This document shows, in pieces, positions 49,640 through 55,745 of a stretch of DNA of 64,000 bases (positions are counted from its first letter, which is position 1; each line of letters opens with the position of its first letter). Location: contig MEOQ01000022.1 of assembly GCA_001769275.1 (NCBI GenBank), positions 1-64,000 on the forward strand, read 5' to 3'. The translations under genes were made by a program, and so were the position numbers. Origin of the DNA: Bacteroidetes bacterium GWF2_43_63. GTDB taxonomy: Bacteria > Bacteroidota > Bacteroidia > Bacteroidales > DTU049. The notes beneath the pieces were generated by a model. The model worked only from the letters and a program-made list of their open reading frames with translations. It was not told the DNA's origin and made no database searches.

Positions 49640-50129
49640 CAAGAAGCGCATAGGGCATGCGGTTAAACCTCCATGGCGCGGATATGCCATCCGTGACATG
49701 GCCATTCTCAATTTGGGCGCGCATCTCTTGCTTGCAACCACGTAAAACGTGGCAAGCTGTTTTAACGGTGACGCGTTACCTTCCTTCTTAATTGGTGCTT
49801 CGCTCAAATCGTCCCCGGGACGGAGTTTATCCCGCTGTTGACATTTCGACTCCGCTCAATGTGACAGCGGCGGGGCTCAGCGTGACAGCAGCTTTTGTGT
49901 CATTTTTTATTTAGGTTGCAAAACGCGTTTTGCAGGTGCCTGTCGCGTAATGTCAGGATTACTGCACGCGGGTCTCAGTATGGCAGCGACAAGGTTCATG
50001 GCTGCCAATATTGGACTGCGCTGCAGTCCCCTCAAAGGAACTACGTAGCTTTTTTTTAATGCCTTCACGTAAAACGTGACAAGGTCGGCTCTCAACCTCA
50101 ACCTCAACCTTAACCTCGACCTTAACCTA
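49640..50129. repeat. Mosaic of several repeat families between the TPR gene and xdh
   Basis: It contains, inverted relative to other copies, the CCATGGCGCGGATATGCCATCC segment (about 49671-49692; near copy at 55690-55740) and the ACGCGT/GTAAAACGTGGCAAG element (49739-49777). It also contains the GGTGCTTCGC...CCCGGGAC element (49795-49822), a CCGCTGT...ACAGCGG hairpin around TTTCGACTCCGCTC (about 49832-49870), and a CTCAACCTCAACC / CTTAACC array (50090-50129) running to the xdh stop codon. No gene is credible here. Confidence 0.7.
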
Positions 50130-52466
50130 TTCAGCCCCCGCTCTCAACCTTTGCACAGCCAGAACAACTTCTTCATTGGTAGCCGGAATGCTTAGCAGTG
50201 GCTCAGTTTCATTATTTTTTACTGAAGCAATGGCGTATTTTATGGCGAGCCAGGCCGAAACAGCCAGCGGAAGTGGTGGTTCACCAACAGCTTTGCTCCC
50301 GAGTATGGTGTTTTCGTTGAATGCATTTTCAAGAAGCTCCACATTTATTTCAACCGGCACATCGGTTATGGTTGGAATTTTATAAGTATCCGGTGATGCA
50401 TTGAGCAACTTACCGTCTTTATTCCATTTAAGATCTTCGGTGGTAACCCAGCCAAGACCCTGCACGAATCCGCCAATCACCTGACCTTTGTCGATCATTG
50501 GATTAATGCTTTTCCCGGCATCTTCGACCAGATCGGCGCGCAGCAGTTTTACCCGGCCGGTGAGCAGATTCACTTCAACTTCGCTTACCGCCATGCCATA
50601 AGTATAATAATGAAATGGTTTTCCAACGCCTTTCGCACGATCGAACCAGATGTCGGGCGTGCGATAATACCCTGCTGAACTCAGATGCGTTTGTTTAAGA
50701 TAGGCCATACTGCAAAACTCTTCAAAGCCGCATGAAATTTCACTTTGCGTATTATCAAAAACAGTATCGTTTTCAATAGTCACATTTTCAGATTCCACTT
50801 TTTTACCCGGATATTTTTCTTCAAGAATTTCCGGGGCCACTGTTTTTATGCGCGCTTTCAGCTGATCCATTGCATTTTTAATGGCCATGCCATTCAGGTC
50901 GGAACCCGACGAAGCCGCTGTGGCAGAGGTATTCGGAACTTTCGAAGTATTGGTTGGAGTGACGATTATTCTCTCGAAACTTACGCCAAGCTCAGCAGCA
51001 GACACCTGCAGCATTTTCAGATTAAGTCCCTGACCCATTTCGATTCCACCATGATTGACCTGAACAGTACCATCTGCATAAATATGAACCAGCGCTCCAG
51101 CCTGATTCAGAAATGCGGTAGTGAACGAAATACCAAATTTGACCGGAACAAGCGCAATTCCTCGCTTGACATCGCGATTGTTTGAATTGAACTCATCGGC
51201 CTGTTTTTTACGATTAAAATAGTCTGAAGTCTGAATTATTTTTTCATACACCAGCCCGAGCCGGTTTTCCGAAATAGTCGCGCCATAAGGGGCTGTGTTT
51301 CGATCATGAATTCCATAAAAATTCAGTTGCCGGATTACATTGGGATCTTTTTTCAGAAAACGAGCCATAACATCGATGGCGTTTTCGATAACTGCCATGC
51401 CTTGTGGCTGGCCGAAACCGCGGAAAGCCACGTTGCTCGGAAGATTTGTTTTCCAGGTGTTTCCAATAATCCGGATATTGGGAATGTAGTAAGCGTTTTC
51501 GGCGTGCAGCATGGCCCTTTCAAGAATAGCCATGGTGAGGTCGGTGGCATAACCGGCATCTGAATTAAAAATGACGGTATAAGCTTCAATGCGTCCTTCG
51601 CTGTCAAAACCGATTTTCCAGTCCGATTGAAAGCGGTGACGTTTTCCGGTAATACTTTGGTCCATATCGCGCGTGAGACGCAGGCGCACCGGCTTTCTGG
51701 TTCTGGCTGCCAAAAGCGAAGTCCATGCAGCCAGGTGATTGCCCGATGTTTCTTTACCACCGAAAGCACCGCCTAAACGCCGTGTTTCAACCACTACCTG
51801 ATTTCGTCCGATCCCCAGCACTTCTGCGACAACGGCTTGTGTTTCGGTCGGATGCTGTGTACTGCTGTAGCAGGTCATTTCATCGTTTTCGCCCGGAACG
51901 GCCAGACAGATTTGTGTCTCGAGATACCAGTGTTCCTGCCCGCCTGAATGAAACTGACCATGCAACACATGCGCACTTTTATGTATTACACCATCCGGAT
52001 CTCCGCGCTCAATGCGGCGTTCAGGTTGCATTCGGGAGTTGTGCTGAATGGCATCTTCAATAGTGAGTATTGGTGTTTCCGGCTCTATATCAAGCTTTAC
52101 AAGTGAAGCTGCTTTATATGCAATTTCAAACGAGTCAGCTGCAATCAGCGCAATAGCCTGTCCGATGCATTGAACCTGGCTTTCAGCCAGACAGGGCTCG
52201 TCGTGAAAAACGGGTCCCATTTGATTGTCGCCAGGAATATCATTAGCTGTCATTATGCAGCGGACACCAGGCAGATTTTTCGCTGCTGAAATGTCTACAC
52301 TTTTCAGTTTACCTTTTGCAACCGGTGACGTAACAATATATCCATGTAATTCACCGCTGCGAAGTGGTATGTCGTCGATGTAAACTGTTGTTCCCTGCAC
52401 ATGTTTGATGGCACTGTCGTGAACGGGATCCTGTTGGCTGATCGTGTGTTTCAGTTGCTTTTTCAT
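50127..52466 (-). CDS. xdhB: Xanthine dehydrogenase molybdenum-binding subunit
   Basis: The 779-residue protein is the large Mo-pterin subunit of the bacterial (separate-subunit) xanthine dehydrogenase. It opens 'DPVHDSAIKHVQGTTVYIDDIP', and has 'GGAFGGKE' and 'RGFGQPQG' for cofactor binding and 'GIEMGQGLN'. The catalytic Glu is in 'GSKAVGEPPLPLAV' (about residue 730). It oxidises hypoxanthine and xanthine to uric acid. It lies 2 bp after the small subunit and is last in the order XdhC, XdhA, XdhB. The stop codon lies within a short tandem array of GGTTAA-like sequence. Confidence 0.94.
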   Translation of the reverse strand: MKKQLKHTISQQDPVHDSAIKHVQGTTVYIDDIPLRSGELHGYIVTSPVAKGKLKSVDISAAKNLPGVRCIMTANDIPGDNQMGPVFHDEPCLAESQVQCIGQAIALIAADSFEIAYKAASLVKLDIEPETPILTIEDAIQHNSRMQPERRIERGDPDGVIHKSAHVLHGQFHSGGQEHWYLETQICLAVPGENDEMTCYSSTQHPTETQAVVAEVLGIGRNQVVVETRRLGGAFGGKETSGNHLAAWTSLLAARTRKPVRLRLTRDMDQSITGKRHRFQSDWKIGFDSEGRIEAYTVIFNSDAGYATDLTMAILERAMLHAENAYYIPNIRIIGNTWKTNLPSNVAFRGFGQPQGMAVIENAIDVMARFLKKDPNVIRQLNFYGIHDRNTAPYGATISENRLGLVYEKIIQTSDYFNRKKQADEFNSNNRDVKRGIALVPVKFGISFTTAFLNQAGALVHIYADGTVQVNHGGIEMGQGLNLKMLQVSAAELGVSFERIIVTPTNTSKVPNTSATAASSGSDLNGMAIKNAMDQLKARIKTVAPEILEEKYPGKKVESENVTIENDTVFDNTQSEISCGFEEFCSMAYLKQTHLSSAGYYRTPDIWFDRAKGVGKPFHYYTYGMAVSEVEVNLLTGRVKLLRADLVEDAGKSINPMIDKGQVIGGFVQGLGWVTTEDLKWNKDGKLLNASPDTYKIPTITDVPVEINVELLENAFNENTILGSKAVGEPPLPLAVSAWLAIKYAIASVKNNETEPLLSIPATNEEVVLAVQRLRAGAE

Positions 52467-52468
52467 GG

Positions 52469-53923
52469 TCAGGAAATTTTCGTATCATTGAAAAACTGCA
52501 GCAGTAAATTTGCAGCGGCAATATTGCGGAATTCCGCACCACTGCGTGCATCGGATAAAGGAGTAAAGGTTGTTTTCACCATTTCCATGGCAGCTGAAAT
52601 ATTTTGTTCACTCCATTCCTTTCCGTTGAGAAAGGCTTCAACAGCGGGAACTGGCAAGGTCATGGCGGCCATTCCACCGTAATACATGCAAATATCTGAA
52701 ACGACATTATTGTCAAGAGTAAGTCTGAAGGCGGCACTTACGGTTGAAATATCCATATCATGCCGCTTGCTCACTTTGTACATTTTTACGATTTCATTTT
52801 TCTGCGGAATGGCAAGATATATTTCAGCAATTAATTCATTGGCCTCTAAAACTGTTTTGCGATAGGAAACAACAAAGTCCCTGATTGGAACAATGCGGGA
52901 ACCTTTTTCGGAAACCAGCTTTAAATCAGCATTGCATGCCATCAGCAGTGGTGCTGTATCTCCGATTGGCGATGCTGAACCGATGTTTCCGCCCAACGTA
53001 GCAACCTGTCGGATCTGGCGTGAAGCAAAGACCGATAAAATGTCATGAAATGCTGGAAAAAGATTTTGTAAAGCTGTGCGGATGCTTTCAAGAGATAGTC
53101 CGGCGCCTATTTTCAGCTCATTTCCATCGCGTTCGAATGTTTTTAATTCAGCAACTCCCGAAATATCGAGAATGGCCGGAATGTGCCTGAAATGCTTGCT
53201 TTGTTGTAATGCGATATCCGAAGATCCGTTAATCACTATTGCTTCGGGATGATTGTGCCGAGCAGCCAGTGCCTGATCCAATGTTAAAGGACGGACGTAA
53301 TATTGTTCCATAGCCAGCACCTCGAGTTTTGCATCCGGCTTGATGATATTGAGCTTTTCGATTAACACTTTCTCTTCTTTATCAAACAAGTCAGGTATTC
53401 GGTTTTGCATAACAGCTTTAGCCGCTTTGCGAATGCTGTCGTAGCCTGTGCAGCGACAAAGATTACCGGCAAGCGCGTTGTTGATTTCGGCATCGTCGGC
53501 TGGAGCAGGGTTGTGGTACTGAGCAAAAAGACTCATGATAAACCCTGGTGTGCAAAATCCGCACTGGGTGGCGTGTTCATCAACAACCGCTTTTTGCACC
53601 GGATGCAATTCTTCGCTGAACGTTGTTTCGGGCGACAGTCCGCGCGATGTGATGAGCAGTTTTCCATCGATGGCCGGAAGGAACAACAGGCAGGCATTCA
53701 CAGCTTTATATTCAAGCGCTTTTCCCGATGCATCGGGGCTGGCCATTACGACCGTACATGCTCCACAATCGCCTTCGGCGCAGCCTTCCTTAACTTCGGT
53801 GTGATGTTTATCTTTACGAAGCCAGTTCAGGACCGTAGTTGACGGTTTGATTTTTTCGGCACCAAAGTCAATGGTAACGGGCTCTCCGTTGAGCAGAAAT
53901 GAAATATTCTGTTTGGTTTTCAT
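52469..53923 (-). CDS. xdhA: Xanthine dehydrogenase iron-sulphur and FAD subunit
   Basis: The 484-residue protein combines a plant-type [2Fe-2S] domain (Cys in 'VKEGCAEGDCGACTVV'), a second helical [2Fe-2S] domain ('GFCTPGF' and 'CRCTGYD', to about residue 165), and a FAD domain (about 195-480). The FAD domain carries 'NGSSDIAL' and 'LGGNIGSASPIGD'. It passes electrons from the molybdenum site to NAD. It overlaps the upstream XdhC gene by 4 bp and is followed by XdhB after 2 bp, a tight operon. The subunit layout is that of E. coli-like and Rhodobacter-like enzymes rather than the one-chain animal type. Confidence 0.95.
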   Translation of the reverse strand: MKTKQNISFLLNGEPVTIDFGAEKIKPSTTVLNWLRKDKHHTEVKEGCAEGDCGACTVVMASPDASGKALEYKAVNACLLFLPAIDGKLLITSRGLSPETTFSEELHPVQKAVVDEHATQCGFCTPGFIMSLFAQYHNPAPADDAEINNALAGNLCRCTGYDSIRKAAKAVMQNRIPDLFDKEEKVLIEKLNIIKPDAKLEVLAMEQYYVRPLTLDQALAARHNHPEAIVINGSSDIALQQSKHFRHIPAILDISGVAELKTFERDGNELKIGAGLSLESIRTALQNLFPAFHDILSVFASRQIRQVATLGGNIGSASPIGDTAPLLMACNADLKLVSEKGSRIVPIRDFVVSYRKTVLEANELIAEIYLAIPQKNEIVKMYKVSKRHDMDISTVSAAFRLTLDNNVVSDICMYYGGMAAMTLPVPAVEAFLNGKEWSEQNISAAMEMVKTTFTPLSDARSGAEFRNIAAANLLLQFFNDTKIS

Positions 53924-54684
53924 CCGATATTTCTGTTTTTTACATCAATTAGTTTTGCCAGAATCGACACAGCAATATCTTCCGGTGTTTCGCAGGCAAT
54001 GTCAACACCGATGGGCATGTCGATACATTCTATTTGTTCCTTTGTCATTCCAAATTCTTCGGCAAATTGTTTTCTGGCAAGTTCAACTTTGCGTTTTGAA
54101 CCGATCATGCCAATATATTTTTTCGGTTTATTTTTTAGCAGGGCCACTACTTCGCTGTCGAATGAGTGTTTGTAGGTAGTCACCACAATATATGAATTGC
54201 TGTGAAATTTTATTTTTTCAGAGGATTCTTCAAAAGGCATTTCATAGGTTGCAGCGAGCCCCTGGGGCCAGGTGGCGCATATTCCTTCGCGGTTATCGGC
54301 CACAATAATTTTATAGCCGGCTACTGAAGCCAGCTTTGCAAGGGCTTTTCCGACATGTCCGGCACCGAAAATAACCAATTCGGGTTGTTGCAGCAGTGGT
54401 TCAAAATACACAGTCATCCGGCCACCGCAGTGCATTTCGAGGTCGTTGGCAAGATTATATGATTTTACAACCGGCGTGTCGGTATTCATCTTTTTAACGG
54501 CCTCGGCAATGGCTTCTTTTTCGATGCTGCCACCGCCGATGGTGCCTTTGATAGAGCCATCGGCAAAGACCATCATTTTCGATCCGGGCTTGCGCGGAGT
54601 GGAGCCTTCAGCTCCGATGATAATGCATAAAACCGCAGCAACATTGTTGTTGATGGTTTCAGAAATGTCGTTGAAAAAATTCAT
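53920..54684 (-). CDS. xdhC: XdhC-family molybdenum cofactor insertion protein
   Basis: The start at 54684 ('MNFFNDISETI', 254 residues) is preferred over a longer frame with an odd hydrophobic prefix. XdhC proteins bind molybdopterin, help sulphurate it and insert it into xanthine dehydrogenase. The N-terminal domain has 'GSTPRKPGSKMMVF' and 'GGSIEKEAI'. The middle 'MHCGGRM' holds the conserved Cys, and the C-terminal Rossmann domain opens 'LVIFGAGHVGKALAKLA' and includes 'GMIGSKRKVELA'. It is the first gene of the xdh operon and overlaps xdhA by 4 bp, consistent with a dedicated maturation factor. Confidence 0.92.
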   Translation of the reverse strand: MNFFNDISETINNNVAAVLCIIIGAEGSTPRKPGSKMMVFADGSIKGTIGGGSIEKEAIAEAVKKMNTDTPVVKSYNLANDLEMHCGGRMTVYFEPLLQQPELVIFGAGHVGKALAKLASVAGYKIIVADNREGICATWPQGLAATYEMPFEESSEKIKFHSNSYIVVTTYKHSFDSEVVALLKNKPKKYIGMIGSKRKVELARKQFAEEFGMTKEQIECIDMPIGVDIACETPEDIAVSILAKLIDVKNRNIG

Positions 54685-54761
54685 GATGCTAATATTTGCA
54701 AGGTAAAAGTACAAAATATATTTTAGTGGCGAGTTGTGAATGGTCAGTAGTCAGTTAGATT

Positions 54762-54797: not shown

Positions 54798-54874
54798 TAA
54801 GCAGGAAAATAGAAATTAAAAAACAGTTATCTTTGAATCCGGAAGGAAATTGCCATGATTAATTAACCAGATTT

Positions 54875-55531
54875 ATGATTCGCAAATTAATTACTACCAG
54901 CATTTTATTTGTTTTCATTTTTTCTGTCAATTGCCAGAACTGCAGAATAGATTTCGCGTCGGCTTTCTTATATGCGAATTGCGATAACGTTTTTGTCATT
55001 TTTGTAAAAAGCAGCCATGACGGAAAAATTACGACCACTATTGATAATGGCACAATTGAACTTTCATCGATTGAAGACGATTCTGTTTTTAGATATTATG
55101 CCCGTCCTAAGGGCAGTATAAATGCAACAATTTCAGTTTATGAAGTCAATGGAAGAGATTCAACTTTATTGGCAAAAGAAAAATACCGGGTGAGACCTTT
55201 GCCGCTGCCTTGGGCTAGGTTGTCGACTCAATTATGCAACCCATGCAGGCTTGATGTTCGGGCACTCAAATCTGCGTTCGGGATTCAGGCTTACCTTGTT
55301 AATGTGGGACCTGAAATTTCATATCCCATAGTTTCCTTTACTGTCATTGCATTACGCGATTCCACGATGATTTTTACCGAAGAAGTGTCAGGCGGTGATT
55401 TTACCGAATCATTGCTTGAAAAATTCGACTTATTGGGGAGAGGCGACAGAGTAATTTTCACATCCATTCAAGCCCAGATTTCAGAGGGATATGATGCTGT
55501 GTTGAATTCAATTGAAATAGTGATTGAATAA
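54875..55531 (+). CDS. Stand-alone GldM/PorM C-terminal-domain protein, exported
   Basis: The 218-residue protein has a signal peptide ('MIRKLITTSILFVFIFSVNC'), then regions that match the last two domains of GldM/PorM. The first (about 25-105) has 'YANCDNVFVIFVKSS', 'ITTTIDNGTI' and 'GSINATISVYEVNG'. The second (about 108-218) has 'YRVRPLPLPWARL', 'ALKSAFGIQAYL' and 'PIVSFTVI', and ends 'GRGDRVIFTSIQAQISEGYDAVLNSIEIVI'. GldM is part of the T9SS motor and normally has an N-terminal transmembrane helix and four periplasmic domains; here only domains D3 and D4 remain, without the anchor. It could bind the GldK/N ring or act as a decoy or adaptor. A TATCTTTG -7 element is at 54828-54835. It stands alone. 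Confidence 0.75.
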   Translation: MIRKLITTSILFVFIFSVNCQNCRIDFASAFLYANCDNVFVIFVKSSHDGKITTTIDNGTIELSSIEDDSVFRYYARPKGSINATISVYEVNGRDSTLLAKEKYRVRPLPLPWARLSTQLCNPCRLDVRALKSAFGIQAYLVNVGPEISYPIVSFTVIALRDSTMIFTEEVSGGDFTESLLEKFDLLGRGDRVIFTSIQAQISEGYDAVLNSIEIVIE

Positions 55532-55570: not shown

Positions 55571-55745
55571 AGGTCACGCGTCAACGTAAAACGTTGCAAG
55601 CAGGAGACGCGCGCCCAAGTGTCAATGTCACGCGTCAACGTAAAACAGCTTGCCGCATTTTAGGTGATTGCAGGCTGGAGACGCGCTCCCAGGTTGAGAA
55701 TGACCATGTCACGGATGACATATCCGCGCCATGGATGTATATGTC
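55571..55745. repeat. Tandem ACGCGT elements plus the CCATGTCACGGAT segment
   Basis: GGTCACGCGTCAACGTAAAACG (55572-55593) occurs, then the same start again at 55627, each followed by GGAGACGCGC. Next comes GAGAATGACCATGTCACGGATGACATATCCGCGCCATGGA (about 55696-55734), which is close to the inverse of about 49671-49710. A translated reading frame shares 'HVTDxISAPW' in both places, which makes the small frames here repeat artefacts, not genes. Confidence 0.75.

Follow-up and report, generated by a model that had tools for sequence, protein, structure and literature searches.

A free-standing GldM D3-D4 protein in a Bacteroidales genome and its candidate GldN-type partners

The closest described relatives of the protein treated here are GldM and PorM of the T9SS motor. 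As described in parts of PMC5790014, the D3 domain of PorM pairs by strand swapping, D4 alone is sufficient for PorN binding in a bacterial two-hybrid assay, and the PorM-PorN KD is about 1 uM. In the modelling and cross-linking parts of PMC12421860, PorM D4 is placed in the cavity that separates two adjacent PorN copies of the PorKN ring, and PorM S460C cross-links to PorN A241C. Track contacts can be disulfide-linked, according to a passage in PMC12635249.

The DNA analysed (the window) is a stretch of 64,000 nucleotides from Bacteroidetes bacterium GWF2_43_63, of the order Bacteroidales. It encodes a short, probably exported protein whose only GldM domains are D3 and D4 and which is called the tip below.

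The tip gene and its product

The tip gene is open and complete. Its features are as follows.

54828..54835, forward strand: TATCTTTG, a TAnnTTTG box 39 bases before the tip ATG
54875..55531, forward strand: free-standing GldM D3-D4 (tip) gene, ATG start, 218 aa
54875..54934, forward strand: signal-peptide-like segment, residues 1-20, from sequence and hydrophobicity
54935..55195, forward strand: D3-like Ig-type domain, residues 21-107, from a GldM_3rd match below cut-off, the PorM alignment and the predicted model
55235..55246, forward strand: CNPC motif, residues 121-124, in the D3-D4 linker, absent from the five other rows of a 6-row alignment
55247..55525, forward strand: D4 domain, residues 125-217, from GldM_4th (37.1 bits), ending at the natural C-terminus of GldM
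55358..55363, forward strand: Asp162-Ser163, aligned by phmmer with PorM Asp459-Ser460 (PorM numbering taken from the chain ends)

The Pfam model GldM_4th matches residues 125-217 above its cut-off (E 5.6e-9, 37.1 bits against 24.6), which identifies D4. GldM_3rd matches residues 31-107 below its cut-off (E 3.4e-4, 21.3 bits against 25.2), and the D3 region is also covered by the PorM alignment and the predicted model. PDB PorM chains align over residues 31-217 with phmmer E values of 3.2e-10 to 5.8e-10, far above chance. The tip is not a full-length GldM: TIGR03517, the NCBIfam equivalog model for that protein, gives 41.6 bits against a cut-off of 180 and aligns only at model positions 334-523 of 524. 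The GldL-inserting N-terminal helix and D1-D2 are absent from the 218-aa ORF, in which a signal-like segment leads directly into D3.

The N-terminus, MIRKLITTSILFVFIFSVNC|Q, resembles a signal peptide, and we infer type I cleavage before Gln21, because S-V-N-C does not fit the standard lipobox. All six rows of an alignment of the window tip with five other free-standing tips have Gln21. In this 6-row alignment the mature chain starts at the first strand of D3, and the boundary therefore fits a domain edge rather than a random break. A second membrane helix is not apparent, since the most hydrophobic stretches are located at the N-terminus and the best 19-residue stretch starting past residue 22 averages 1.29. 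The original prediction, made from the sequence of the locus, described a protein with a signal peptide, only the last two periplasmic domains of GldM/PorM and no transmembrane helix. The domain content and the lack of a later helix hold, and the start of the protein is signal-peptide-like by sequence and hydrophobicity. A disulfide role for CNPC or for Cys23/Cys36 was also considered; CNPC is not conserved in the 6-row alignment, and therefore no such role is claimed.

An AlphaFold2 model of the tip, built with 80 GldM D3-D4 alignment rows, has a mean pLDDT of 85.8. Compared with the PDB, four PorM/GldM entries match it best (Z 14.5-15.3, against at most 9.1 for the next protein), and seven PorM/GldM chains rank first in Foldseek. 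The predicted fold thus agrees with the GldM periplasmic structure, the comparison that the original prediction had proposed, and not with the mismatch that it named as counter-evidence. The fold evidence is partly circular, because the alignment behind the model held GldM, and a model from the single sequence is poor (mean pLDDT 48.6). The sequence match to the PorM chains is independent of that alignment.

The Asp-Ser pair of the tip lies at the position of the PorM residue that cross-links to PorN. Contact of the tip with GldN is plausible, because PorM D4 alone binds PorN. A P[DN]G motif near the end of D4 is found in 88 of the 135 long GldM frames versus 12 of the 39 exported D3-D4 frames of the order (19 of all 52 short frames); the Fisher p of 0.0002 is only rough, because the rows are related. 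The window tip does not have this motif, and its loss speaks against a contact identical to that of GldM.

To the left of the tip gene are xdhC, xdhA and xdhB, pointing away from it, and to the right are genes for a CCA-type nucleotidyltransferase, a PRiA4-ORF3-like protein, a TPR protein and a ComA-family enzyme. None of these seven neighbours is a T9SS protein. The tip gene lies neither between gldL and gldN nor next to a gldN-like gene. Contig C14 carries the true gldM (C14:1292-2935), with GldL and GldN adjoining; this GldM has 547 aa, and the tip is 24% identical to it over 128 residues. The tip gene has a G+C content of 0.388 versus 0.438 for the window, and its codon-position pattern is weak. 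The TAnnTTTG box, which is of the Bacteroidota promoter type, is no evidence by itself, because it is equally common in shuffles (52 observed, 53.3 expected). Short repeats lie downstream of the tip gene and before the CCA gene, at 55574-55690, with TCACGCGTCAACGTAAAAC twice and GGAGACGCGC twice. Molybdenum-hydroxylase genes lie near a tip gene in three loci (window 50127-54714, L079:2-3717 and L066:165-2714), and XdhB of the window and of L079 are 69% identical. This association may be chance, because gene order and orientation differ among the three loci.

Distribution and relatives of free-standing tips

The free-standing tip of the window is not a one-off. GldM_4th matches in 348 of the 393 genomes of the order, about 54 of which have more than one match. 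The genomes rechecked were 53 of the multi-match genomes and one other, along with 30 that have a weak or short single match. This gave an initial 52 short frames, 46 of them with a signal-like start. Among the 46, 39 are exported D3-D4 frames of less than 300 aa, counted after removing frames cut by contig ends or gaps; they are found in 25 of the 393 genomes, with the window's included. The other 7 are exported frames with D4 only. This sorting used our own HMM, and the D3-D4 set includes poor D3 matches such as that at L099. A lipobox-like motif was flagged in 9 of the 46, with the one at L081 probably false. Of the six short frames that have no signal-like start, four (L012, L059, L114 and L123) are truncated by contig ends or by N, one (L104) is broken in two frames and one (L109) is a fragment. 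Some of the exported D3-D4 frames are in tandem, and in the five loci measured (L070, L079, L080, L081 and L085) the copies are 15-30 bases apart, stop codon included. A wider hand list of 41 genomes includes forms of 340-370 aa, D4-only forms, one fusion (G100) and fragments; it was reduced to 40 when G058 was removed, where a GldM-like sequence is cut by N.

GldL is above cut-off in 42 of the 45 short-form genomes examined. Three genomes with the longer short forms (G269, G337 and G339) have a full-length GldM and only weak GldL matches. Three other short-form genomes (G167, G091 and G031) have no full-length GldM above cut-off, yet all three have GldL. In a class-wide search 311 of 395 genomes match, mostly with full-length GldM among the frames listed, and a few short frames are found in other orders. 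A search with the window protein found no close relatives in named genomes. Nine of the 11 other genomes of the genus and family matched, with GldM frames only except for a frame in G010 that is cut by a contig end, and two had no match.

In a 128-row tree the window tip joins five other free-standing tips (support 96/90 and 83/91, in a bootstrap that had not settled). In a 37-row tree the support for this grouping falls to 52/29, and both trees have long branches. With the 37 rows, a link of the window tip to the GldM of its own family is not rejected (AU p 0.157). No origin is claimed for the tip, because the 37-row support falls and the own-family link is not rejected.

Several other contexts of these domains were seen in the order. 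At L112:4678-5058, on contig C12 of the window's own genome, a 127-aa exported protein has only a D4-like domain (19.0 bits, under the cut-off of 24.6), and similar D4-only frames occur at L085, L103, L107 (two), L108 and L120. At L106:4879-8129 and L114:2-787, GldM D3-D4 follow a membrane helix and a coiled-coil-like stretch. The L106 gene lies downstream of NTPase-like frames that by eye look nSTAND-like, and a TPR-like frame then follows in both loci. The 340-370 aa family has a conserved N-terminal part before D3-D4 (L090, L091, L093, L095, L096, L098, L110 and L111), and the four of its neighbours that were scanned (at L091, L098, L095 and L110) have plug-like or plug and VWA domains. The tip genes at L081 and L121 adjoin genes for WD40 or caspase-domain proteins. 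At L122:3499-7104 in G340, a gldL-like gene (174 aa) precedes two divergent gldM-like genes (510 and 508 aa); the main gldL match lies on another contig.

GldN-like proteins as candidate partners

In two genomes of different families (G314 contig C59, family f13, and G151 contig C135, family f28), the tip gene starts inside the stop of the preceding gene, with an ATGA overlap in both. In both, the preceding region is GldN-like and double. A double GldN-like protein is also encoded in the window's own genome.

L071:4673-6420 (G314): cassette of a double GldN-like gene and a tip gene, with a 363-aa frame that has two GldN stretches
L102:4926-6812 (G151): cassette of a double GldN-like region and a tip gene, with the region split in two frames, one of them above the Pfam cut-off
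L280:5181-6203 (contig C40 of the window's genome): double GldN-like protein, 341 aa, two GldN stretches, 43.8 bits against a cut-off of 23

The tips of the two cassettes share 38% identity, so the arrangement has persisted while the sequences diverged considerably. With the L071 GldN-like protein as query, 81 of the 393 genomes of the order match at E <= 1e-6. These matches are ordinary GldN of about 290 aa along with many frames that are either about 180-225 aa or about 340-375 aa long, which suggests that GldN-like proteins, both single and double, form a wide family in the order.

The C40 protein has a lipobox-like start (by eye); its gene adjoins that of a CHU_C-tailed protein, and a PorP/SprF gene is two genes away. 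The tip had been predicted to be alone and not in a gld operon. This is correct for the locus, with its xdh and CCA neighbours, and not for the genome, which also encodes the D4-only protein on C12 and the double GldN-like protein on C40.

Apart from the two ATGA cassettes, no free-standing GldN-like frame was seen beside a tip gene. Sixty-eight genomes have non-standard (short, double or other) GldN-like frames, in a hand list by frame length that includes a few very long frames. Tips and these frames co-occur weakly in the 393 genomes, with 12 shared in lists made by hand (Fisher p 0.047, or 0.044 without G058). With strict tips only, 8 of the 25 genomes have such frames (p 0.056). GldN is found among 2 of 56 tip neighbours versus 0 of 80 controls (p 0.17). 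Beside tips there is no enrichment of T9SS sorting tails, with 6 of the 56 neighbours versus 5 of the 80 controls (p 0.36). The set of 56 is the 72 drawn less the 16 that flank eight loci with the 340-370 aa family, and the controls come from 40 regions, chosen by hand, which lie on 33 contigs of these tip-bearing genomes.

Possible functions and relation to known systems

Our tentative preference, held at somewhat less than an even chance, is that the protein is a soluble periplasmic copy of the outer tip of the T9SS motor rod that works off the motor and docks on a GldN-type surface without transmitting force. After export to the periplasm the tip would dimerise by strand swapping in D3, in the manner of GldM, and would dock on the GldN-type surface with D4. 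It would be a passive clamp or adaptor, and could not carry torque because the motor (GldL-binding) half is lacking. It may bind the GldN ring itself, although we consider a free-standing GldN-like protein the likelier partner; one candidate is the double protein on C40, which could present two neighbouring PorN-type subunits in one chain. Consistent with this are the D3-D4 of natural length behind a signal-like start, the kept Asp-Ser pair, a host genome with GldL, full-length GldM and GldN, the recurrence in 25 of 393 genomes, the two ATGA cassettes and the genome's own C40 protein. The absence of P[DN]G, the lack of an adjoining gldN-like gene in the window and the weak co-occurrence argue against such docking. 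Tuning of the ring and service to a separate GldN-like protein would look alike at the level of sequence. A broader and doubtful proposal is that some Bacteroidales keep a second, motorless T9SS set, in which loose tips and single or double GldN-like proteins make a periplasmic clamp or adaptor and the double protein mimics the ring-subunit pocket gripped by the tip.

The plug or competitor of the original prediction is one variant of this off-motor reading. The soluble tip would fill the GldN sites of the ring, lower motor coupling and so brake secretion or gliding. We regard this as improbable. PorM D4 alone does bind PorN in two-hybrid tests, as parts of PMC5790014 report, and the motor is present in most short-form genomes, with GldL above cut-off in 42 of 45. 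This co-occurrence says little, because GldM_4th is matched anyway in 348 of the order's 393 genomes; G269, G337 and G339 have only weak GldL matches, and the window tip has lost the D4 end motif. A brake by itself also leaves the double GldN-like partners and the tandem copies unexplained.

It is also possible, and on balance unlikely, that D3-D4 are here a repurposed Ig-type binding module for partners outside the T9SS, the sequence having drifted from the GldN contact. The domains do occur behind a membrane helix near an NTPase frame (L106, L114), in the 340-370 aa family, whose neighbours include plug-like and VWA-domain proteins, and in tips beside WD40 or caspase-domain proteins. The window tip itself is very divergent, with its low identity to its own GldM, a long branch and no D4 end motif. 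However, the fold and the Asp-Ser site are kept, and two cassettes pair a tip with GldN-like proteins. A decaying or functionless gldM duplicate is very improbable. It would fit the finding of GldM frames only in the other genomes of the genus and family (nine with a match, the G010 frame being cut), the low G+C with a weak codon-position pattern, and the own-family GldM link that is not rejected. Against it, the frame is intact, with a signal-like start in place of the N-terminal half of GldM and a natural C-terminus, and the same architecture is found in 24 other genomes.

A natural soluble protein of D3-D4 only is a ready reagent for studying how the T9SS motor grips and moves the GldK-GldN ring or track. 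Were tips and matching double GldN-like proteins to form a natural family, this contact would have found a second use away from the motor, where it might also be regulated. In the open-access literature searched, no paper on free-standing GldM tips was found by title or by the start of the abstract; one clause of PMC5790014 mentions extra porM relatives in F. johnsoniae.

In the free-standing tip, one part of a known machine has been rearranged. The tip resembles GldM/PorM (TIGR03517; PDB 6EY4, 6EY5, 6EY6 and 7CMG) in its D3-D4 sequence, predicted fold, natural C-terminus and the Asp-Ser at the PorN contact. It differs from GldM/PorM in that the GldL-binding helix and both D1 and D2 are missing, the start is signal-like, the gene lies outside a gld operon and the TIGR03517 score is far under the cut-off. 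GldN/PorN and the free-standing GldN-like proteins belong to a different family and are the expected type of partner, with genes that overlap the tip gene in G314 and G151. Another counterpart is the crystallised D3-D4 fragment of PorM (residues 315-516, PDB 6EY6), which has the same two domains folded without the rest. As the crystallisation part of PMC5790014 describes, that fragment arose by proteolysis during crystallisation, whereas the tip of the window is a gene product.
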